From: a virus
Length of the DNA: 20,088 bases
Direction: 5' to 3' (one strand)
IMG/VR virus record: IMGVR_UViG_3300030331_002953
Location: 1 to 20,088 of that record
The notes below the pieces were generated by a model. The model ran no database searches and was not told where the DNA came from. It saw nothing but the letters and a program-made list of their open reading frames with translations. Every line of letters begins with the position of its first letter. The first letter of the stretch is position 1. A program made the translations under genes and the position numbers. Below, in pieces: positions 1 to 18,666 of the stretch.

Positions 1-3000
1 TATTTCATTAATATTTTGAAATGCGGTTTCTATTGGCGCTCTGCCTTTATCTGTTGGACTAAGGCCCGCAGGGCTAACGTTTACCCCTCTAACCATGTCC
101 TGTAATAGATTTTTAATAATGAAGGCATTCATCTCCCTAGCAGCTTTAGTAGGAGGTTGATCACCACCGCCAAAACCAAGACTTTTCCTTAACTCATTGA
201 AAATTTCTGCCATTTCAGAACTCCTCATCGGAGTTGCTCCAGAAGCAAATGGCCCTTCTTCACGAGTAACTCTTCTTGCTCTTACTTGGTCCTGAAAATA
301 TAAAGCTAAATCTTCTCTTTGTTTATCTGTGAGAGATTCAGCAAAATCTTTGATAGTGTCTTCTCTTTTTGATATTTCTAAAGCAATTTTATTGCCAAAT
401 TCCCTAAATGAGTTTGCATCTGGAAAAGCTAAAAAATCTTTCTTCATGAACCCAGCTCCAGGAACTCTATCCATTCCCCCCATTGCAGCAGGAACAGCTC
501 CCGCACCTTTAGCGAGTTCGGTAAACTGAGCTTGAGTTCCACCTGATAAGAAAAATCTCTGAGCTTGAGCAGCTACAGCTTCTTGTGAACCAGCTAACAG
601 ACCTCCAAACGTAAAAGTACCTTTAGATATAGAATCAACTAAAGTTTGAACTTCGTTTTTATCAACGGCCGATAATTCATTTAGCGCGAGCGCCGCCCCT
701 TTAGCTGCATCTGTTAAAAGCGCCATTGCATCTTTATTGGCTTCATTAACCCCATTTAAATCCTTATATATTCCAGTTCCTACTTTATATACTGCACTAA
801 CTGTTCCTAAGGCCATTGCTAAAGTCCCAGCTCCTCTTGTTAATTTTGCCATTACCCCAGTGCTATTTTTCATGCCGTCTGCAAAACTTTTTAATGCACT
901 TCCCGCTAAAAGTCCTGTGGTTAAATCTGATATACCTGTAGTTAAAGTATTAACAAACTTTCCTATGCCTTTTTCCGCATCTGAAGTAGCGCCAACTAAA
1001 AGGCTAACACCCATCTGTACTGCAAAAATAGTACCAAGTAAATCTCTTGTAGGCTTCTCTAATTCAGATCCAGATCCAGGTTTAGTCTTTGGAACCATTG
1101 TTTTTGCGAAACTAGGAATAGCTCCAGTAGGCTCATCTCTAGTATTAGTAACAGCAAGGCCCATTGGGTTTGCTGAGTTTCTTAGTGTGCCTTTTTGATT
1201 AATTCTTATCTGGTTGATAGGTATGCCAGCGGCAGCTTCTCTGCCTATTGCATTTTCTAAAGCTCCTACAAAGTTAGGAATATAACCGCCAGCAGCGTTA
1301 CCTTTCTTTGGTTTTTTAAAAACTCCAGCATGAACCATTGTTTGATCTGCAAATCTGTCAAGACCAGTTAGACTAGACTTATAATCGCCTTGTCTGAAAT
1401 GACCTTTAGGTAAACCAAAAATCATTTCTATAAATCCTCTGTTTTTCCCAGGACCAGAATCTAAATCTATGTCTAAATTTCCTCTCTTACCTCGTCCTCC
1501 TGAATCATCTAAATGAGCGTTTATTACAGCATTTGTAATTGACTCAAATAAAGATCCTTTTAATGCGGCTATGGCTCCAGGACCACCTTCAGAACTTATT
1601 AAACTTGTTAAGTTATTCTTTGTTACTGGAGAAGGTTTAATATTTATGTCTTTTGCTAAAGATTGAGCTACGTCATTAGCCGCTATTGCTAAAGAGTTTT
1701 CTATATTGTCCTCTAAGTTTAAAAACTTATCAAAACCATCTGGATTACCCTTTAGTCTTGGACTTATACCATAAGCAGAAGCTCTGAAGGCATTAAATTT
1801 TCCTCTAGGGTTTATAAATCTTTTTCTAAGCCCTCTTTTTCCATGAGTTTGAGGAACCAGCATTACATATGGACCGCTATCTCCAGACTTAAAACGGTCA
1901 GCGCGAAATTCCTGCATGCCTTGCAGTGTCTTTAGTCTCTCTTTAGCAGCTAAAATTTTTGGATCTTTGTCTGTATATGCTAAGGTCGCTGCTGTACGAC
2001 TATTTCCCCTCGCCAAAGCAGCGGCATTCTTAAGTTTATCAGGGTTACTTTGTTGTACTATCTCATCAATAGAATATGGTAGCCCACCTTTTCCTTTTGC
2101 AACAAAGTTAGGAATATATCCTCCAGCTGCTCCTACCCTTCTAGCCCCAGGAGGTAATCCCATTGAGGCTGCCATGTTCTGATTAAATATAGCAGAACCG
2201 CCACCAAAATTAGGAACAATAAATTCACTGGTATTGGCAACCATTGTGCCACGCTGACCACCACCAAAATTAAAATTAGGTATAGATACAGGTCTAGCTG
2301 AAGGAGGAGCGCCGCCAACACCGCGATTAATATCCGCTTGTTCTGAGCCAACTACAGACCCTCCAGCAAAGTTAGGAATATAACCTCCAGCACCTCTACC
2401 AAAAGCGCCTCTTCCCGTTGTTCCTGCTCTAACCCCAGGAGCTACACGAGCAGCTATGCCTTGCATTTTTGACATTATCGCAAACTGTTCGTTAAGAGCA
2501 GTGGTAAAAAACTGAGTTTGTTCAACCTTCTTTTGTTCTGCGGATATCTGTTTGTTTTCAATTCTTAAAATTTCTCTTTGAACCTCAGAATTGCCTAAAA
2601 GAGTCGAGGCTATTTGACCTTGTAAGGTTGCCTGTTCTTTTGCGGCTCTGTTTAAACCAAAGAAAGTCTTTAATGAACCAGTACCAAACTTAACAAGATC
2701 TAAAGTAAGCTTTCCAATAACTGCTGCAAAAACAGCTAACCCAGGTCCAGATAAAACATTACCTATTCCTTTAACCAATCCTTTTGCTATGTTACTGCCA
2801 GTTTCTTCATCTAATAAACCTTTTAATCCTTCAACCATACTGTTGAAGAATCCTAAGACATTTTTTAAACTATCAGTAACACCTATCTTGCCAAGCATGT
2901 CTCCCAATTGAGAAAGGTTAACTGTCACTTCATTTATAGCTGCACTTAAAGTTTTATTTAACGCTTCGTTACGCTCATAAGCTGCTGTTGTAGCTTTAGA

Positions 3001-4023
3001 GGAGATTTCTGTTATCTTTATAGCTTTTGAAGTTTCATCGTTGTAGTCCTCTAGTATCGATATGAAAGGAGCGACTTGGAATTTACCAACCAAGTTCTCA
3101 GCTATCTGTAGTCTTCTAGCATCAGGAAAAGTTTCAAGAACTCCAGCTAGATTTTTAATTATTTCAGTTGCAGATAAAACTTGACCTTCCGAATCTTCAA
3201 TTTGGACACCCAGCTCTCTCATTGTTTTCAATTTATCAAGACTCTGTATTCTTGTAAAAATTGTTTTGAAGGAGTTACCTATAACTGCACCACCCCTAGA
3301 TGTTTTCTCTTGCACGGCACTCACAATACCAACAAGCTCATCAAAAGAAACACCCGCTTGTCCAGCAACAGCACCAGCTCGCTTAAAAGCCTCGGCCAAA
3401 TCTCTTTCTGATACCGCTGCACTTTTAGCAGCCTCAGAAAATTTATTAACGACTTCAGAACTTGTAATCCCAGCACTTTTAAAACCGTTTATCGCTGAAG
3501 TAAGTCCAGCCACCGCATCTGCGGCACTCTGCCCAGACAATCTACTTAAAATCAAAGAATCATTAAGTCTTCTAACAACTTCTGTTGCACTCAGACCTTG
3601 ACGACTTAATTCTAACGCAGCAGTCGAAACAGTTTCAAAAGACTGCTCAGTGTTTCTGGCTACATCAAATATTTCTTTTTTAAATTTATTTAGCTCTCCA
3701 GAAGATGCACCCAAGATAGCATTTATGCTAGCCATCTGTTTTTCTACTTGAATTGTAACTGTAACTATATCTTTGAAAGATTGAGTCACAGCAGTCAAAA
3801 CTCCAACAGATGCACCGAAAGCCAAAACACGGGCATTTGCAGCCTCCATGGATTTTGTGAACTCATCAGCTTTACCTGTGATTCTACCTAAGGGTTGAGC
3901 CAATGCCTCAACACTCCTAGCGCTTGTGCCTAAATTTATCTTTAAATTTCTGCCAGCTTTTTTAGCGGCAATTTCAGCACTTTTCTCTAATCCAGTAAAT
4001 TCTGCGGGTATTTTTAGCGACAT
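1..4023 (-). CDS. Tail tape-measure protein, TP901-like, partial (C-terminus off window)
   Basis: The frame is open for 1341 codons from the ATG at 4023 to the left edge, so the C-terminus is missing. Tape-measure proteins set tail length, fill the tail tube and can be ejected into the host with DNA. Residues about 80-270 are Ala/Ser-rich helices ending in a GNSFKTIFTRIQ-type stretch, as in the TP901/PhageMin_Tail core. A hydrophobic segment lies near 422-446, with helical, Gln-rich sequence near 470-530. Then come glycine-rich IPNF motifs (GYIPNF at 547, 635 and 913; SIPNF near 581; IVPNF near 602; AIPSF near 969). Between 641 and 912 sits a cassette with PD-(D/E)XK-nuclease-like residues. 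An AAAGG lies 11 bases before the ATG. It follows two chaperone-like genes, the usual position. The family is seen from sequence; the cassette's role is inferred. Confidence 0.88.
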   Translation of the reverse strand, partial: MSLKIPAEFTGLEKSAEIAAKKAGRNLKINLGTSARSVEALAQPLGRITGKADEFTKSMEAANARVLAFGASVGVLTAVTQSFKDIVTVTIQVEKQMASINAILGASSGELNKFKKEIFDVARNTEQSFETVSTAALELSRQGLSATEVVRRLNDSLILSRLSGQSAADAVAGLTSAINGFKSAGITSSEVVNKFSEAAKSAAVSERDLAEAFKRAGAVAGQAGVSFDELVGIVSAVQEKTSRGGAVIGNSFKTIFTRIQSLDKLKTMRELGVQIEDSEGQVLSATEIIKNLAGVLETFPDARRLQIAENLVGKFQVAPFISILEDYNDETSKAIKITEISSKATTAAYERNEALNKTLSAAINEVTVNLSQLGDMLGKIGVTDSLKNVLGFFNSMVEGLKGLLDEETGSNIAKGLVKGIGNVLSGPGLAVFAAVIGKLTLDLVKFGTGSLKTFFGLNRAAKEQATLQGQIASTLLGNSEVQREILRIENKQISAEQKKVEQTQFFTTALNEQFAIMSKMQGIAARVAPGVRAGTTGRGAFGRGAGGYIPNFAGGSVVGSEQADINRGVGGAPPSARPVSIPNFNFGGGQRGTMVANTSEFIVPNFGGGSAIFNQNMAASMGLPPGARRVGAAGGYIPNFVAKGKGGLPYSIDEIVQQSNPDKLKNAAALARGNSRTAATLAYTDKDPKILAAKERLKTLQGMQEFRADRFKSGDSGPYVMLVPQTHGKRGLRKRFINPRGKFNAFRASAYGISPRLKGNPDGFDKFLNLEDNIENSLAIAANDVAQSLAKDINIKPSPVTKNNLTSLISSEGGPGAIAALKGSLFESITNAVINAHLDDSGGRGKRGNLDIDLDSGPGKNRGFIEMIFGLPKGHFRQGDYKSSLTGLDRFADQTMVHAGVFKKPKKGNAAGGYIPNFVGALENAIGREAAAGIPINQIRINQKGTLRNSANPMGLAVTNTRDEPTGAIPSFAKTMVPKTKPGSGSELEKPTRDLLGTIFAVQMGVSLLVGATSDAEKGIGKFVNTLTTGISDLTTGLLAGSALKSFADGMKNSTGVMAKLTRGAGTLAMALGTVSAVYKVGTGIYKDLNGVNEANKDAMALLTDAAKGAALALNELSAVDKNEVQTLVDSISKGTFTFGGLLAGSQEAVAAQAQRFFLSGGTQAQFTELAKGAGAVPAAMGGMDRVPGAGFMKKDFLAFPDANSFREFGNKIALEISKREDTIKDFAESLTDKQREDLALYFQDQVRARRVTREEGPFASGATPMRSSEMAEIFNELRKSLGFGGGDQPPTKAAREMNAFIIKNLLQDMVRGVNVSPAGLSPTDKGRAPIETAFQNINEI
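1270..2385 (-). repeat. Recurrent IPNF motifs in the tape measure
   Basis: Three near-identical motifs, GGYIPNF preceded by Ala/Gly, are coded at 2385-2368, 2121-2104 and 1287-1270. The underlying 18-mers differ only at one or two bases. Two degenerate copies (SIPNF at about 2283, IVPNF at about 2220) fall between the first two, and an AIPSF copy lies outside this span near 1119. Each is set in Gly/Ala-rich, linker-like sequence. They may mark domain boundaries, processing sites or docking points; the sequence does not decide between these. Confidence 0.8.
1285..2105 (-). other. Nuclease-like cassette inside the tape measure (residues about 640-913)
   Basis: This subregion lies between two GYIPNF motifs and differs from the Ala-rich helical body around it: it is charged, with many Gly, Asp, Lys and Asn. 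In order it shows KGSLFE (E827 in a likely helix), NLDIDL (D851/D853 in a likely strand) and QGDYKSS (D880-x-K882), followed by a segment with DQ. That order matches the E...D...(D/E)xK pattern of the PD-(D/E)XK nuclease superfamily. The upstream half (about 641-820) carries basic stretches and no motif I recognise. The nuclease call is an inference from a handful of residues; a structural mimic without activity is possible. Confidence 0.4.
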
Positions 4024-6140: not shown

Positions 6141-6611
6141 ATGGCAGGGTTTTTATCACAAGATCAAATAAATAAAATTAATAGTTTAGCGGATACTTTG
6201 CATACAACATTCGCTCAAACTATCACGGTATATAAAAATGCTAAAAAAACCTTAATAGCTTCTACTGATAATTGGAATTCCCTTTACAGAAGAACTAATA
6301 CAGGTTCTAACACATCTGTTGAATACTCTATGATTTCAGATACTTTTGAAGCTAGAATATACTACGTAGACATGGAAAAAGAGTACCTAGCGGATGAAGC
6401 TGGTACTGGACAAGTAGGCACTCAAAACAAAGTTATTTTGCCAGACGGCAGCGTAAAAATAGTAGTAAAAGAAGCTGGTTATAACTATATACGAGAGGCT
6501 AGAAGGGTAGAATTTGACGGCAGAAAATTTGCCATTAAAAGCGATGGATCTCCTCGTGGATTAACTAGCAACAGATTTTTTACTTTTCTTTTAACTCCTA
6601 TAGATGAATAA
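6141..6611 (+). CDS. Probable neck/head-closure protein
   Basis: This 156-residue protein is the first gene of the rightward block. Its N-terminal part (QDQINKINSLADTLHTTFAQTITVYKNAKK) is helical and the rest is beta-rich, with EYSMISDTFEARIYYVD and QNKVILPDGSVKIVVKEAGYNYIREARRVEFDGRKF, a layout like small head-tail joining or stopper proteins. Its TAA overlaps the next ATG by one base (TAATG), so the two are translationally coupled. No clear Shine-Dalgarno precedes the ATG; only AAAAG is present. The neck assignment rests on size, fold type and its place between connector-like and tube genes once the inverted block is set straight. Confidence 0.5.
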   Translation: MAGFLSQDQINKINSLADTLHTTFAQTITVYKNAKKTLIASTDNWNSLYRRTNTGSNTSVEYSMISDTFEARIYYVDMEKEYLADEAGTGQVGTQNKVILPDGSVKIVVKEAGYNYIREARRVEFDGRKFAIKSDGSPRGLTSNRFFTFLLTPIDE

Positions 6612-7207
6612 TGGCGAGACTTTCATTACAGGTCAGGGAAGCTTTAAAAAGACAAGTCCCTAAAGTAGCAAAAAAAGATCTTAACAGAGAAGTCAGAAAA
6701 GCTTTTAAAAGAACTAAAAATCAAATGATGAAAGAGTTCTTGCAGCTGCCAATAACTCAAGAGCTTTTGGCTGGCCCAGAATCTGCTAATATTAGCGGTA
6801 CTCTAAGGGGCGTTACAAATCTTTTTGCTTTTATAGGTTTTGATTCAGGAGAAAAGCCAGTAGATATTATAATACAGGCTTTAGAAAATACTAATATACA
6901 GTTCAGAAAAGAACTAAAAAAAGGAGAAAAGCTTGGCGCAGAGTACTCAATAAACTTACCAACACCTGAACAAATATTTGCAATCACTCCAATGCCATGG
7001 GCTTTAGGTAGAAGTTGGGCGCGGGGTATAGAGAGCGGCATATCAGGATTAGGCTTTTTATTAAGGAAAAATAATAGGGGCAGATCGGGTAGAGCTATCC
7101 AAAGTCGTGTAAAGGTAAGGGGAGGGGCTTTTAAGCCAACCCCATATATCACAGCATTTTTACAGAAATATAAAAAAAAGTTTGAATGTCTCGAATATAA
7201 AAAGTAA
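6611..7207 (+). CDS. Probable neck / tail-completion protein (HK97 gp10-like)
   Basis: This is a 198-residue basic protein. Its N-terminus (LSLQVREALKRQVPKVAKK and on to about residue 45) is a long Lys/Arg helix, followed by SGTLRGVTNLFAFIGF near residues 61-76. The C-terminus has RGGAFKPTPYITAFLQKYKKKF. HK97 gp10-type tail-completion proteins also have a basic N-terminal helix, a sGtLr-like element and a terminal P-pal segment, so the resemblance is reasonable though not decisive. The gene overlaps its predecessor by one base and its TAA directly abuts the next ATG (7208), indicating a tightly coupled group. No strong ribosome-binding site is seen. Confidence 0.5.
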   Translation: MARLSLQVREALKRQVPKVAKKDLNREVRKAFKRTKNQMMKEFLQLPITQELLAGPESANISGTLRGVTNLFAFIGFDSGEKPVDIIIQALENTNIQFRKELKKGEKLGAEYSINLPTPEQIFAITPMPWALGRSWARGIESGISGLGFLLRKNNRGRSGRAIQSRVKVRGGAFKPTPYITAFLQKYKKKFECLEYKK

Positions 7208-8056
7208 ATGAAAGAACAATTCCAACATAAAGTCACAACCTCATTTTTTATGTGGTTTGATAATTTTTTGCTAACAAAAGGTGAGGCTTTTTCTAATAAA
7301 ACAGGAGAGTTTTCATATTATGAAGATGCTAGATTAGACTCTACATATAAAGCTTACGGAAGCCCGTTCAAGACATGGGTGACTGACTCATCTATTACAG
7401 GAGCTAATATACCTACAGGAGTTTTTATAAATGGTAACTTTTCAGGAAGAGATGACGGAGTTGTTCTAGATTTTGAAAATGGCAGAGCGTTAGTTTCAGG
7501 CAGCGACGAAGATTTAACAGTAACTGGAGAGTTTTCTGTCAAAGATTTTAATGTCTACATAACTAACGATACTGAGGATGATTTAATTGTAGAAAACAAA
7601 TATAAAGTTAATTCCAGGTTACCATCAGCTTCATATGGTGCAATTTCACCGTATGATGATGTGGTTCCAGCTGTTTTCATATCAACAGCAAATTCAACAA
7701 ATGAACCTTTTGCATTTGGTGGAATACAAAACACTTCAGTGCAAGTAAAAGCAGTAATTTTAGCTGAGGATACATATCAGTTAGACGGAGTTTTATCTAT
7801 ATTTATGGACTCTGTAAATGAATGTATAACCAGTATACCAATGACAGGTTACCCAATTACAGAATTGGGAGATCTAAAAGACGGCAGCTACTCCTATACA
7901 GGATCAGAAGCTGGGTACACGGATAATAGGAAATTTTACGTTGATAGCGTAACAACTTCAAAACTAACAGATAGAGATAGGAAATCTCTAGCACACGAAA
8001 TGTATGTTGGATTTATCGATTTTGACATAAAGCAAATGAGATTGAGATTCACATAA
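7208..8056 (+). CDS. Virion structural protein, probably neck or tail terminator
   Basis: This is a 282-residue protein, acidic (many Asp and Glu) and rich in beta-strand-forming sequence, with Gly/Asp/Asn turns and no signal peptide or membrane segment. The N-terminus (TTSFFMWFDNFLLTKGEAF) is aromatic; the C-terminal half includes RKSLAHEMYVGFIDFDIKQMRLRF. It begins immediately after the stop of the preceding gene without a clear Shine-Dalgarno and ends 49 bases before the tail tube gene. Between a tail-completion candidate and the tube gene, a tail-terminator or neck role is likely, although the length exceeds the usual 130-200 residues of those families. I do not recognise a named family. 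Confidence 0.5.
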   Translation: MKEQFQHKVTTSFFMWFDNFLLTKGEAFSNKTGEFSYYEDARLDSTYKAYGSPFKTWVTDSSITGANIPTGVFINGNFSGRDDGVVLDFENGRALVSGSDEDLTVTGEFSVKDFNVYITNDTEDDLIVENKYKVNSRLPSASYGAISPYDDVVPAVFISTANSTNEPFAFGGIQNTSVQVKAVILAEDTYQLDGVLSIFMDSVNECITSIPMTGYPITELGDLKDGSYSYTGSEAGYTDNRKFYVDSVTTSKLTDRDRKSLAHEMYVGFIDFDIKQMRLRFT

Positions 8057-8105
8057 TTTCACATTTTAACAATAAAACTGTAAACAAAGAAAAGAATCTT
8101 TTATT

Positions 8106-9194
8106 ATGGCCAGAAATAGAGTAATTTATCAATCAGAAGCCCTATTTGTAAGTGAAAATGCGTCCTCAGCGACAGCAGCAAAACACGAGCAAATCGAAAG
8201 GGTGCAAAGTGCAAACTTTAGCTACACAATTAACAGACAAGATGTCAACCAATTTGGAAATCTAGCAAGAATAGACTCCTTAGTTCTTGACCCTCCTACA
8301 GTCTCTGTTGATTTTTCGTATTATTTAACAGATGGAGCAAATGAAAGAGCTTTAGGATTTTATGTAAAAACTGGGGCAGTTGCACAAGTCAACTTCGCCT
8401 CTGGACATATGATTGGAAGCTCTGGAAAGAACATCTACATAGCAACAAGCCCAGAAGGTACAGACGTAAATAATGATGGAGCATTAAACGGTACTGATAC
8501 AGTTATTGGAATTGGTAACTCTTATGTTACTGATTACTCAGTAGATATGTCAGTAGGATCTCTTCCAACTGTTTCAATGACAATGGAAGGAGCAAATGTT
8601 AACTCATCTCTTAGTGGTGCAAACTTTTTAACTCCAGCAGTTGATCAAGAAGCAGGTACACCTTTAGGTTTAAGAGTCGCTCTCCCAACCCCAAATTCAG
8701 GGACTTCAACAGCTCTTACAGCTTTACGTCCAGGAGATATAACAGTAAGTTTAGATAACTTTGAAGGAGAAACTATAGCAGATCTAGTAGGAACTGATGG
8801 AGCGCACGTACAAAGCGTTTCTTTAAGCCTTCCTCTTTCAAGAAGTCCTTTAGATAGACTTGGTAGTAGATTCCCATTTGCTCGTGAAGTTGATTTCCCA
8901 ATCAATGTTACAATGTCTATAAGTGCAATTGTAAATGAAACTACTGCATACAACCTAGCAAACGGTTTACAATCAGGAGTTCAAACTGCAACTGTTACTC
9001 TTAAAGACGAAGATAGCGCAAATGCTATGGTTTGGACATTGAAAGGAGCGCAGGTTGACTCAGAAAGTTTCTCATCTGCGATAGGATCAAACCAAACTGT
9101 AGACCTTACACTGTCTGCACAAGTAGGTGGTCCATCAGATACTGATGCTGGATTATTTGCTAGTGGAGCTAGTAAGCATACGATATTTGTTTAA
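8106..9194 (+). CDS. Major tail tube protein
   Basis: This 362-residue protein is Ser/Thr/Ala/Gly/Asn-rich and nearly all beta, as expected for a tail tube subunit. The N-terminal part contains FSYTINRQDVNQFGNLARID and PPTVSVDFSYYLTDGANE, a pattern typical of tube proteins in which a strand precedes an N-Q-F-G loop. Residues 120-131 form a perfect EF-hand/dockerin-like loop (D, N, D, G, L, N, D at positions 1, 3, 5, 6, 8, 9, 12). The C-terminal half (from about 200) looks like a second beta domain. Codons appear better optimised than in the neck genes, as for an abundant protein. It is followed at once by a strong terminator. A major tail or decoration protein are alternatives, but the tube is favoured by position. 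Confidence 0.75.
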   Translation: MARNRVIYQSEALFVSENASSATAAKHEQIERVQSANFSYTINRQDVNQFGNLARIDSLVLDPPTVSVDFSYYLTDGANERALGFYVKTGAVAQVNFASGHMIGSSGKNIYIATSPEGTDVNNDGALNGTDTVIGIGNSYVTDYSVDMSVGSLPTVSMTMEGANVNSSLSGANFLTPAVDQEAGTPLGLRVALPTPNSGTSTALTALRPGDITVSLDNFEGETIADLVGTDGAHVQSVSLSLPLSRSPLDRLGSRFPFAREVDFPINVTMSISAIVNETTAYNLANGLQSGVQTATVTLKDEDSANAMVWTLKGAQVDSESFSSAIGSNQTVDLTLSAQVGGPSDTDAGLFASGASKHTIFV

Positions 9195-9207
9195 TATTTA
9201 ACAATAA

Positions 9208-9237
9208 CCCTCTCTCCGAAAGGGGAGAGGGGTTTTT
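9208..9237 (+). terminator. Intrinsic terminator after the tail tube gene
   Basis: The 5' arm CCCTCTCTCC (9208-9217), GAAA loop (9218-9221) and 3' arm GGGGAGAGGG (9222-9231) form ten base pairs with one G-U, followed by a further G and five T. It lies 13 bases after the tube stop codon. Its 3' arm is purine-rich and ends 12 bases before the ATG of the next gene, so it may also hold that gene's ribosome-binding site. Confidence 0.9.
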
Positions 9238-9243
9238 ACAAAG

Positions 9244-9474
9244 ATGAAAGAAAAATCTAAAATTAAAGCTAAGAAAGTAGTTAAAACTAATAAAGCTGAA
9301 GAGCCAAAAAAAGAAAAAGCGCCTCAGCCAAAAAGTAAACCTACTTCAAAAGCAAAAACCGCAGGTCAACTTTTGAAAGATTATGCAAAAGAATCCGCAG
9401 GTAAAGACGCTGCAACAAAAATCAAACTTAAAGTTAAGCTAAAAAAGAATTTAGCAGATCTTAAAAAGAAATAG
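9244..9474 (+). CDS. Lysine-rich histone-tail-like small protein
   Basis: This 76-residue protein has 27 lysines, no arginine, no cysteine and one tyrosine, with Ala, Pro, Ser and Thr making up much of the rest. The first 40 residues are PK/AK-rich and probably disordered; the remainder (AGQLLKDYAKESAGKDAATKIKLKVKLKKNLADL) may be helical. The composition resembles histone H1 tails and other nucleic-acid-compacting proteins. It lies between two terminators, so it depends on read-through of the first. The GGGGAGAGG in that hairpin is the only Shine-Dalgarno-like sequence before its ATG. Roles such as DNA condensation in the head or tail assembly are guesses; the composition is the only direct evidence. 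Confidence 0.65.
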   Translation: MKEKSKIKAKKVVKTNKAEEPKKEKAPQPKSKPTSKAKTAGQLLKDYAKESAGKDAATKIKLKVKLKKNLADLKKK

Positions 9475-15859: not shown

Positions 15860-15886
15860 AAAGTTAACTTTCAACTTTTAAAAGTT
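15860..15886. repeat. Two adjacent perfect palindromes in the terminase-portal gap
   Basis: AAAGTTAACTTT (15860-15871) and AACTTTTAAAAGTT (15873-15886) are perfect palindromes of 12 and 14 bases separated by one base. They share AACTTT/AAAGTT arms, so several alternative foldings exist. The second overlaps the terminase stop codon (15885-15887). They may bind a dimeric protein or form an RNA element controlling the portal leader. Confidence 0.55.
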
Positions 15887-17750
15887 AAGAAATAAACATT
15901 GGTGTGAAAGTTTGTTGACCATAATTTCCTTCGAACGCTTCCATGTCATAAAAAACATTCATCATCCAATTAGCAAGCACTAAAGCTGAATACGAGTCCT
16001 TCCTGGCCTTATCAGCTCCTTTTTGTTTTCTTAAATTTGGCGGTAAATCAAAACTTTGAGTTCCCTGAACAGAGGTTGTTACTTGTATCAAAGCGCATTG
16101 GACCTTTATTAAATCCATCATGTCTTTTTGATGCTCAACCAAGTCAATCATTCTCGCCCCAGGTGAGCCACTAGTATTTGAGTCATTTCTTATAAACTTT
16201 AAATTTTTTATAGGAACTCTAGACTTTCTCTGGATATTGTAATCATCATTCATGGCTGCTCCAGCGAAAAATATTTTTTTATGATCAAAAGCTGACTGCA
16301 AAGACTCATTAGCTGCCCTGATCCACTGAGAGCTTGGTTTTCTTAAAAACACATATCTTCTTGAACTTTTATTGTATTGATTTTTTACTCTTCTTAAATT
16401 CTTTTCATAATCTGCAACCTTATCTAGATCAGCCTCTATAGTATCTAACCTTAAATTAAGATCTTTAAATATAGTGCTTTCATTGCATGAGTTCATAAAC
16501 TGAACACCACCATTATAGTCGCCCACTACCGCTACAATATTGAAATGAGTCATAAGATAAGCCATGTACCTTATGTGTGTTTTTAGATTAGCTCCAGACA
16601 TGGCGTAACTATGAACAATAGTACCCTTCTTTAAGTCTTTGTTTAATTTAAGCAATAATATAGCGAAATCGTCAGAGCTTTCACTTTCTGACCAAGATGG
16701 GTCAAAAGCTAAAATATATTCATCATTATGATTACCTACTACCTCAACAGATTGACCCTCGCCATCAGGTATGGTGCATTCTGCCATTTTGCTAACTTTA
16801 AAATATCCAGAGCTATCATCTGTAAACACAGCGCCAAACTCTCGATCAAACTGAGAATCGCTCATCGTAGCTCGTGATTGATTTATAAGGTTTTGATCAT
16901 ATAGCTGTTCTGGAGCGCAATCATAGCTAAAGTGCATAATCGTCCTATGCGCTCCGTCCTGTGTGTTCTTATTTAAAATTAAATTTTCATATTGCTGATA
17001 AAGTTTATATAAATATTCAAATTTGTAAGAAGCGGAAGACAATCCTATAATTTTGTTATTAGGCCAGATTTTTCTTTCATCCTCAGTCATCTTGCCTTGT
17101 TTAATCATCTCTGTTTCCAAATCATAAACTTCTTGTCTCTCTGTTGGATTATCAACCACAGATAGGAATGGCATAATCACTTCATTAAATATTTTTTCAG
17201 GCATTAACAAAAGCTCATCTATAATCATTCGTTGAAAACGGAAGCCTCTAAGTTTTTCACCGTCTCCAAGAGGTAAAGCTCTTATACTGCTTCTACCTAT
17301 TTCCATAACCCATTCATCATTCATTTTAGATGTCCTTGTTATACATTGAGAAAAGAATGTGGCCTTAGGGCTTTTAGCAATATCTTCTATCTTCTTAAAT
17401 ATCATTTTAGATTGTCTAAATGATTTAGATAAAATGCCTATCTGCACCCCTTGATTTAAAATGCCGTCTAAGAGCGCGAAAATAGCCGTAGAGAAGCTTT
17501 TAGACATTCCACGGCTCCATATGCCCAAAAAGTAATCAGACTCCATCATCGCCTTTATAGCCATATGCTGAAAGGGAAAGAGTTTTACCCCAGTAAACAA
17601 CTCTGTAGCGAAAGACGGGTTTTCTCTTAGGAACTTATAAAGCAAAATCTTTGCTTCATTCTCATCCAAAAACCCCTCTTTTTCTACCAGCTGTTGGTTT
17701 ATATCTTTGTACTCTCTTCTTAACTTTTGTACTCCTGTTTCCCAAGCCAT
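15885..17750 (-). CDS. terL: Terminase large subunit
   Basis: This 621-residue protein is the packaging motor, an ATPase-nuclease that docks on the portal. The ATPase domain has a Walker-A-like WSRGMSKS (residues 78-85, K84) and a Walker B MIIDEL (D178, E179). The nuclease domain has the RNase-H-like acidic triad: ILAFDPSW (D360), AVVGDYNGG (D421) and KDSYSALVLANWM (D575). The length is within the usual 450-700 residues. The ATG at 17750 is followed by helical sequence up to the SRGMSKS motif; a weak AAAAG is next to it. Its first 89 bases overlap the nuclease gene in another frame, so start and coupling are notable. Function is confident; the exact start less so. Confidence 0.92.
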   Translation of the reverse strand: MAWETGVQKLRREYKDINQQLVEKEGFLDENEAKILLYKFLRENPSFATELFTGVKLFPFQHMAIKAMMESDYFLGIWSRGMSKSFSTAIFALLDGILNQGVQIGILSKSFRQSKMIFKKIEDIAKSPKATFFSQCITRTSKMNDEWVMEIGRSSIRALPLGDGEKLRGFRFQRMIIDELLLMPEKIFNEVIMPFLSVVDNPTERQEVYDLETEMIKQGKMTEDERKIWPNNKIIGLSSASYKFEYLYKLYQQYENLILNKNTQDGAHRTIMHFSYDCAPEQLYDQNLINQSRATMSDSQFDREFGAVFTDDSSGYFKVSKMAECTIPDGEGQSVEVVGNHNDEYILAFDPSWSESESSDDFAILLLKLNKDLKKGTIVHSYAMSGANLKTHIRYMAYLMTHFNIVAVVGDYNGGVQFMNSCNESTIFKDLNLRLDTIEADLDKVADYEKNLRRVKNQYNKSSRRYVFLRKPSSQWIRAANESLQSAFDHKKIFFAGAAMNDDYNIQRKSRVPIKNLKFIRNDSNTSGSPGARMIDLVEHQKDMMDLIKVQCALIQVTTSVQGTQSFDLPPNLRKQKGADKARKDSYSALVLANWMMNVFYDMEAFEGNYGQQTFTPMFIS

Positions 17751-18666
17751 CTTTTATAATATGTTTATTCCAAAAATATTGAACATCTACTGACCAAAGA
17801 TCTGATCCTAGTATTAACAGTTTAGGTATTATAAACTCACTGTCTTTTCTAGATCCACTAAACACAAATTGACAACAATCTGAATACTCAGCTTGTATCT
17901 CTCTCATTTGATGGAACACATAGTCCAATTTAAATTTTTTAAATCCTTTTTTATTCTCATCCTCCATCTTATCGAAGGCAGTCTCAACCACTATAAACAA
18001 AAAGCAGCCTAAACTTTTACATCTTTCTAACTCTTTTACGAATCTATTGTAGCCGTTTGTAACGGTAGAGCAAAAATCCTGGTAGGACTTACGATCTACA
18101 AATGTATATGAATAATCGTCTCCCATAACACCGTAGTCTCCAACGTCTAATTTCAAAACTCTACTATTTTTGAAATTTAACGGTTGCTGTTCTCTTGTGT
18201 CTATAAGTATGCGGGTTGCTGTAAAATCATTATAAAATTCAGCTGGTAGCTGCCGTGACAGCATCGGCTTTAAACCAGCCGCTTCACAGGCTTGGCTATA
18301 GCTGCCGAAAAGTCTTTTACAAGTGTCTACGTCTGGTAGACCTGCGGTCTTTAAATAAATATCGGGCGGAGCTGCTATTAGCTCCTTTTCTTTCTGTCTA
18401 TCTTTTAAAATATCTATAATGAATTTTTTTACTTCCGCTTTCTTAGCAGTATCGCACCACTTAACCATATTTTCGTTGTTAAGAAAATATGTGCTAAAAT
18501 ACTGCTTATAGTTTTTAAATTGTATGAGTTCTCCAGTAAGTTTATCTTTCCTAGCGTAATTCTTGACGTAGTAGTCTCCAAGAACCATGTCATGCTTTTT
18601 TATATGTGCATGTAAGCTTCTTAAAAAAGTAAAGTCTTCTCCACACTCTTTACATTTAAACGACAT
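17662..18666 (-). CDS. C2H2 zinc-finger plus ERCC4-type nuclease between terminase genes
   Basis: This 334-residue protein has three recognisable parts. Residues 5-25 are a C2H2 finger (C5-x2-C8-x12-H21-x3-H25). Residues about 120-134 (FGSYSQACEAAGLKP) resemble the homing-endonuclease-associated repeat. Residues 151-260 carry ILIDTREQ (D156), DVGDYGV (G176, D177) and VDRKSYQD (D191-R-K-x3-D197), the XPF/ERCC4 nuclease signature GDxnERKx3D with Asp in place of the first Glu. The C-terminus is strongly basic. The gene overlaps the upstream gene by 11 bases and the terminase by 89. A free-standing homing endonuclease or a packaging-associated nuclease (as HNH proteins are near some terminases) are both possible; nuclease activity is likely. 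Confidence 0.8.
   Translation of the reverse strand: MSFKCKECGEDFTFLRSLHAHIKKHDMVLGDYYVKNYARKDKLTGELIQFKNYKQYFSTYFLNNENMVKWCDTAKKAEVKKFIIDILKDRQKEKELIAAPPDIYLKTAGLPDVDTCKRLFGSYSQACEAAGLKPMLSRQLPAEFYNDFTATRILIDTREQQPLNFKNSRVLKLDVGDYGVMGDDYSYTFVDRKSYQDFCSTVTNGYNRFVKELERCKSLGCFLFIVVETAFDKMEDENKKGFKKFKLDYVFHQMREIQAEYSDCCQFVFSGSRKDSEFIIPKLLILGSDLWSVDVQYFWNKHIIKDGLGNRSTKVKKRVQRYKPTAGRKRGVFG

Follow-up and report, generated by a model that had tools for sequence, protein, structure and literature searches.

Phage tail tape-measure proteins are found at the site of DNA entry, as illustrated by that of lambda, which is labelled by the inner-membrane protein ManZ during injection (PMC13190303). It has also been proposed that multi-enzyme proteins are delivered together with phage DNA (PMC5512222). 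Tape-measure genes have been noted in variable metaviromic islands of marine phages, for which the available portions of the reports give no enzymatic explanation (PMC3909814, PMC5628999). In the open-access literature, we found no description of the sequence GYIPNFA and none of nuclease cassettes in tape measures.

Here, we describe the larger finding of this analysis, a slot in tape-measure proteins that holds diversifying, exchangeable cassettes. The slot has defined boundaries, and the very divergent cassettes that occupy it keep the same active-site residues and are exchanged from one phage to another. The nuclease-like domain of the virus fragment analysed below is one allele of this slot, which is exchanged at GYIPNF across many phages, a feature absent from the initial annotation of this DNA.

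A cassette slot between repeated motifs

The window, by which we mean the whole stretch of DNA that was analysed, is a 20,088-base virus fragment whose first minus-strand ORF (1-4023) encodes a tape-measure protein. This ORF contains PF10145, the core domain of phage tail tape-measure proteins, and a PHROG search with it returned many tape-measure families, down to 5.4e-43. The initial annotation had placed a domain between two GYIPNF motifs of a tape measure. We confirmed this arrangement: GYIPNF begins at aa 547, 635, and 913, and KGSLFE (aa 822-827), NLDIDL (aa 849-854), and QGDYKSS (aa 878-884) lie exactly where they had been reported. The span given at the time, 1285-2105, was right to a few bases, the codons of aa 641-912 being 1288-2103. 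Only one enzyme-like domain is recognisable in the window protein, in which a Pfam search detected no metallopeptidase. Its features are as follows, with residue counts taken from an alignment of 57 distinct cassettes.

1-4023 (-): tail tape-measure ORF, truncated at its C-terminus by the end of the window (1341 aa present); PF10145, E=7.7e-30
2368-2385 (-): first GYIPNF motif, aa 547-552
2104-2121 (-): second GYIPNF motif, the left cassette boundary, aa 635-640
1288-2103 (-): cassette, a nuclease-like domain whose N-terminal lead is poorly conserved, aa 641-912
1297-1869 (-): conserved cassette core, the basis of alignments A3 and A4, aa 719-909
1543-1545 (-): E827, first acidic residue; 54 E and 3 D, n=57
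1471-1473 (-): D851, second acidic residue; D in 57/57
1465-1467 (-): D853, neighbour of D851; D in only 4/57
1384-1386 (-): D880 of the (D/E)-x-K motif; 27 D and 30 E, n=57
1378-1380 (-): K882 of the (D/E)-x-K motif; K in 57/57
1270-1287 (-): third GYIPNF motif, the right cassette boundary, aa 913-918
1108-1269 (-): conserved post-cassette linker, AI-x-RE...NPMGLAVTNTRDEPTGAIP, aa 919-972; 88 motif copies of the set are followed by it

Elsewhere in the window, the nearest cultured relatives of the terminase (15885-17750, minus strand) are Slash/Staley-type and SPbeta-type Bacillus phages, which share about 25% identity with it and place the window phage far from isolates. A gene overlapping the terminase start (17662-18666, minus strand) encodes an ERCC4-type nuclease (PF02732, 2e-8), and two further features of its product score below their cut-offs: a C2H2-like zinc finger at the N-terminus and a homing-endonuclease-associated repeat. 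The structural module is otherwise on the minus strand and is interrupted at 6141-9474 by a plus-strand block of genes for products of 156, 198, 282, 362, and 76 aa.

A direct search with the cassette identified one close relative, L001 (57% identity in the best segment), and no match to the cassette or linker was found among cultured phages in 50,697 phage records. Running a DNA pattern for GGYIPNF[A/V] on IMG/VR viral contigs returned 113 stretches. Nearly all of these correspond to ORFs that resemble tape measures and carry one to eight copies of G[YF][IV]PNF. The set counts 114 such ORFs, almost every one of them with a domain in this slot. The context of the motif is strongly conserved as A-A-G-G-[YF]-[IV]-P-N-F-A, and 88 motif copies are followed by a conserved linker with AI-x-RE and NPMGLAVTNTRDEP. 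A first HMM that included the GYIPNF flanks drew in non-nuclease cassettes and was for that reason replaced by a core-only iterative profile. This profile recovered 78 of the 115 inter-motif cassettes and detected a nuclease-type domain at E<1e-3 in 92 of the 114 ORFs; several of the remaining ORFs either have the signature outside the reach of the profile or are themselves truncated at contig ends. The pattern E..D..(D/E)xK was present in 76/76 distinct covered slots, and no empty allele of the slot occurred among them, in a set that was chosen by motif and is hence biased. In a search of genome contigs, the sole true match was to a contig binned to a Flavobacteriaceae MAG, which is probably a phage contig. 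The single match to the cassette profile among 190 genomes around a Marivita genome, a weak one to a Sel1-like repeat protein, was judged spurious.

A few relatives add other cassettes that are enzyme-like, judging from their sequences. In L058, one cassette bounded by the same motifs is a CCA-adding/poly(A) polymerase (PF01743, 9.4e-15; PDB 3aqm, 2.1e-15; NCBIfam, 1.2e-41). L012 and its relatives have a P-loop, GPAGSGKST, with only weak matches to ATPases. By eye, cassettes of L050, L034, and L037 resemble a kinase, an ADP-ribosyltransferase, and a HAD protein, respectively; library searches gave no support for these resemblances, which serve as leads only. A single tape-measure-like ORF of 3548 aa (L058:5925-9830, plus strand) combines nuclease-type, CCA-adding/poly(A) polymerase, and further unknown cassettes between the same motifs, and L034:228-3287 (minus strand) encodes several successive cassettes bounded by GLIPNF, the nuclease-type one seemingly without the lysine.

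Cassettes are exchanged at the GYIPNF-coding sequence

Comparison of closely related phages shows that the cassette is swapped precisely at the GYIPNF-coding sequence, while the DNA ahead of it stays up to 97% identical. The window and its sibling L031 share 95.3% amino acid identity in the 634 residues that precede the cassette, 38.9% in the cassette itself, and 62.1% beyond it, and their DNA identity (91.3% over 2232 nt) stops 1 nt past the second GYIPNF motif. Despite this divergence, the two cassettes keep the signature residues, and D853 is changed. The DNA of L095 and that of L108 match at 97.1% identity along 2829 nt, a match that extends 3 nt beyond the motif; their cassettes have no detectable similarity, and DNA identity picks up again at the next motif. 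Like junctions at the motif were found in L012/L038 (96.1%), L016/L018 (91.6%), and L068/L071 (85.7%). Because DNA on both outer sides is 94-96% identical in L012/L038, the swap in this pair is local. Each of the five pairs thus combines a conserved carrier with an exchangeable domain, as in polymorphic toxin systems, the toxicity of the cassette being putative.

Over all long matches inside both ORFs, 15 of 71 match ends fall within 30 nt of a motif end. The remaining match ends are at the linker end or beyond it, where the tape-measure protein enters a second variable part. In L012:7964-10023 (plus strand) and L038:3989-5961 (plus strand), this second variable stretch begins about 60 aa past the cassette, between outer regions of 94-96% DNA identity.

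Conserved residues and predicted fold

Fifty-seven distinct cassettes, from the window and other contigs, were aligned after being gathered by profile score and not by signature residues. Most are only 12-30% identical to the window cassette. The sole near-invariant columns are G823 (56/57), E827 (54 E and 3 D), D851 (57/57), and K882 (57/57), and position 880 is acidic in every cassette (27 D, 30 E). The set E/D ... D ... (D/E)-x-K is thus kept in the homologues to an extent that exceeds chance, and this arrangement, the D/E alternation included, is the PD-(D/E)XK signature as read from aligned residues. A loose regular expression for the signature also matches 21 of 71 N-terminal control segments of tape-measure proteins; such a pattern is unspecific, so only aligned conservation carries weight. 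L034 and L103, near-identical contigs that fell outside the alignment for length, seem by eye to have lost the lysine, and the other cassettes inspected in this way have the signature residues. The conservation predicted in the initial annotation therefore holds for E827, K882, and position 880 (as D or E). It fails for D853, which had also been named, as only 4/57 cassettes have D at this position; the aspartate that never varies is its neighbour, D851.

The core of canonical PD-(D/E)XK enzymes has the order alpha-beta-beta-beta-alpha-beta. AlphaFold modelled the window cassette with a mean pLDDT of 74.6 (core mostly 80-97) and the core of the relative L020 with a pLDDT of 81.6 and a pTM of 0.78. 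Both models have an N-terminal beta-meander followed by long helices, the last of which bears the E; then come a short strand at the D, a helix, a strand that has (D/E)xK at its end, and a final helix. This predicted order, sheet-alpha-alpha(E)-beta(D)-alpha-beta(ExK)-alpha, differs from the canonical one. Foldseek searches of the PDB with both models, and of BFVD with the window-cassette model, found no similar solved structure or viral model, respectively, and no PD-(D/E)XK match. Sequence searches with the cassette against Pfam, PHROG, NCBIfam, PADLOC, and PDB sequences likewise gave no credible match. A mycobacteriophage Cas4 was considered as a relative and set aside (tblastn E of about 0.8, not significant).

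To compare profiles directly, we aligned the cassette with two known PD-(D/E)XK families using hhalign. Against UPF0102, the E, D, and ExK positions fall in register, with a gap at the extra helix of the cassettes, and the match is weak (E=0.12, where the true pair Mrr-UPF0102 gives E=0.0016); 3 of 150 column shuffles reached the real score. Against Mrr, none of 150 shuffles did so, but the alignment is off register. The nuclease reading of the initial annotation was thus upheld by residue conservation, with D851 in place of D853, but not by fold search, where neither model resembled a PD-(D/E)XK structure in the PDB and the order of elements was noncanonical, and profile comparison with the two families was weak. 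Membership of the cassette in the PD-(D/E)XK superfamily is accordingly unproven, the profile comparison being suggestive. That the cassette may work like a PD-(D/E)XK enzyme is better supported. The cassettes would represent a divergent, nuclease-like family that is new and goes unrecognised by current libraries.

Possible roles and comparison with known systems

Our preferred reading, which we consider somewhat more probable than not, is that the cassettes are diversifying nuclease effectors that would be carried by the tape measure and act at DNA entry. From tape-measure biology (PMC13190303), we infer that the cassette is injected with the DNA. The tape measure would exit the tail with the DNA or ahead of it, and the cassette would reach the host cytoplasm or inner membrane. 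There, it may cut nucleic acid, whether the chromosome, a resident plasmid or prophage, a defence element, or tRNA. An arms race over the target or an inhibitor would underlie the diversity of the cassettes, and GYIPNF would be the recombination junction and possibly also a hinge or processing site. A broader proposal, which we put forward more tentatively and with slightly less than even confidence, is that this is an undescribed diversifying family of virion-delivered nucleases, in which a large clade of uncultured phages uses its tape-measure proteins to carry effectors. These proteins would have a nuclease cassette that is almost always present yet hypervariable, could hold additional enzymes, and would exchange cassettes at a motif dedicated to this purpose, AAGG[YF][IV]PNFA.

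Among the alternatives, it is unlikely, though worth weighing, that the domain is a variable structural or recognition spacer, which would pick an inner-membrane partner or evade a host factor that binds tape measures, such as SNIPE, its acidic and lysine residues being structural. In favour of it, tape measures are known both to contact proteins of the inner membrane and to be recognised by defence systems (PMC13190303), and their genes have been noted in metaviromic islands of marine phages (PMC3909814, PMC5628999). However, almost all that stays invariant among the 57 divergent sequences is an acidic residue, an aspartate, and (D/E)-x-K with alternating D and E, and a spacer would not be expected to retain this set. 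A nuclease directed at phage DNA itself or serving virion maturation, by trimming the packaged DNA or releasing it when head and tail are joined, as reported for T4 gp4, is by our estimate marginally less likely still. Virion nucleases with a maturation role are documented (PMC7824862), and we keep this rival because a nuclease-type cassette that is near-constant in the tape-measure clade (76/76 distinct covered slots of the motif-chosen set) fits an important infection step. If the domain served such a housekeeping step, though, siblings whose flanking DNA is 91-97% identical would not be expected to differ by replacement of all of it.

A selfish insertion in a structural gene, of a homing-endonuclease-like or intein-like kind, appears very improbable. 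Nuclease genes are often located at phage recombination boundaries, according to the portion of the source available (PMC10448857). This domain, however, sits in frame between repeated motifs, has no empty allele in the biased, motif-chosen set of 76 distinct covered slots, and belongs to a series of cassettes that replace one another instead of inserting, with non-nuclease cassettes sharing the same boundaries.

If the cassettes are effectors carried by the tape measure, this protein would be an effector delivery vehicle and not only a ruler, as if each phage were loading its own enzyme into its infection syringe. The presence of tape-measure genes in metaviromic islands would also gain an enzymatic explanation if the protein guiding DNA into the cell has an exchangeable nuclease-type domain.

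Several described systems share parts of this picture. Like members of the PD-(D/E)XK superfamily (such as UPF0102/YraN and Mrr_cat), the cassettes are predicted to have a helix-borne E, then D, then a strand-end (D/E)-x-K followed by a helix; unlike them, they have a predicted extra helical stretch between the D and (D/E)xK and a beta-meander N-terminal to the catalytic helix, and lack a significant fold or profile match. T4 gp4 and related REase-fold nucleases (PMC7824862) also place a nuclease of this general class in the virion, but gp4 is a separate head-completion protein, whereas the cassette is a swappable domain of the tape measure. The polyvalent proteins of phages and conjugative elements (Iyer et al. 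2017, PMC5512222) combine different enzyme domains in one protein expected to enter with invading DNA. Some relatives of the window protein similarly carry several cassettes, with L058 joining a CCA-adding/poly(A) polymerase to a nuclease-type cassette. The window protein differs in having a single recognisable enzyme-like domain in place of several, with no metallopeptidase detected, and the carrier here is a tail tape-measure protein, while the words "tape" and "TMP" are absent from PMC5512222. As in polymorphic toxin systems (PMC3482391), a conserved delivery part is combined with effector domains exchanged by recombination at a fixed boundary; here, the cassette is internal and flanked by the same short motif on both sides, none of the listed neighbouring genes was recognised as one for immunity, and the carrier is a phage tail protein.
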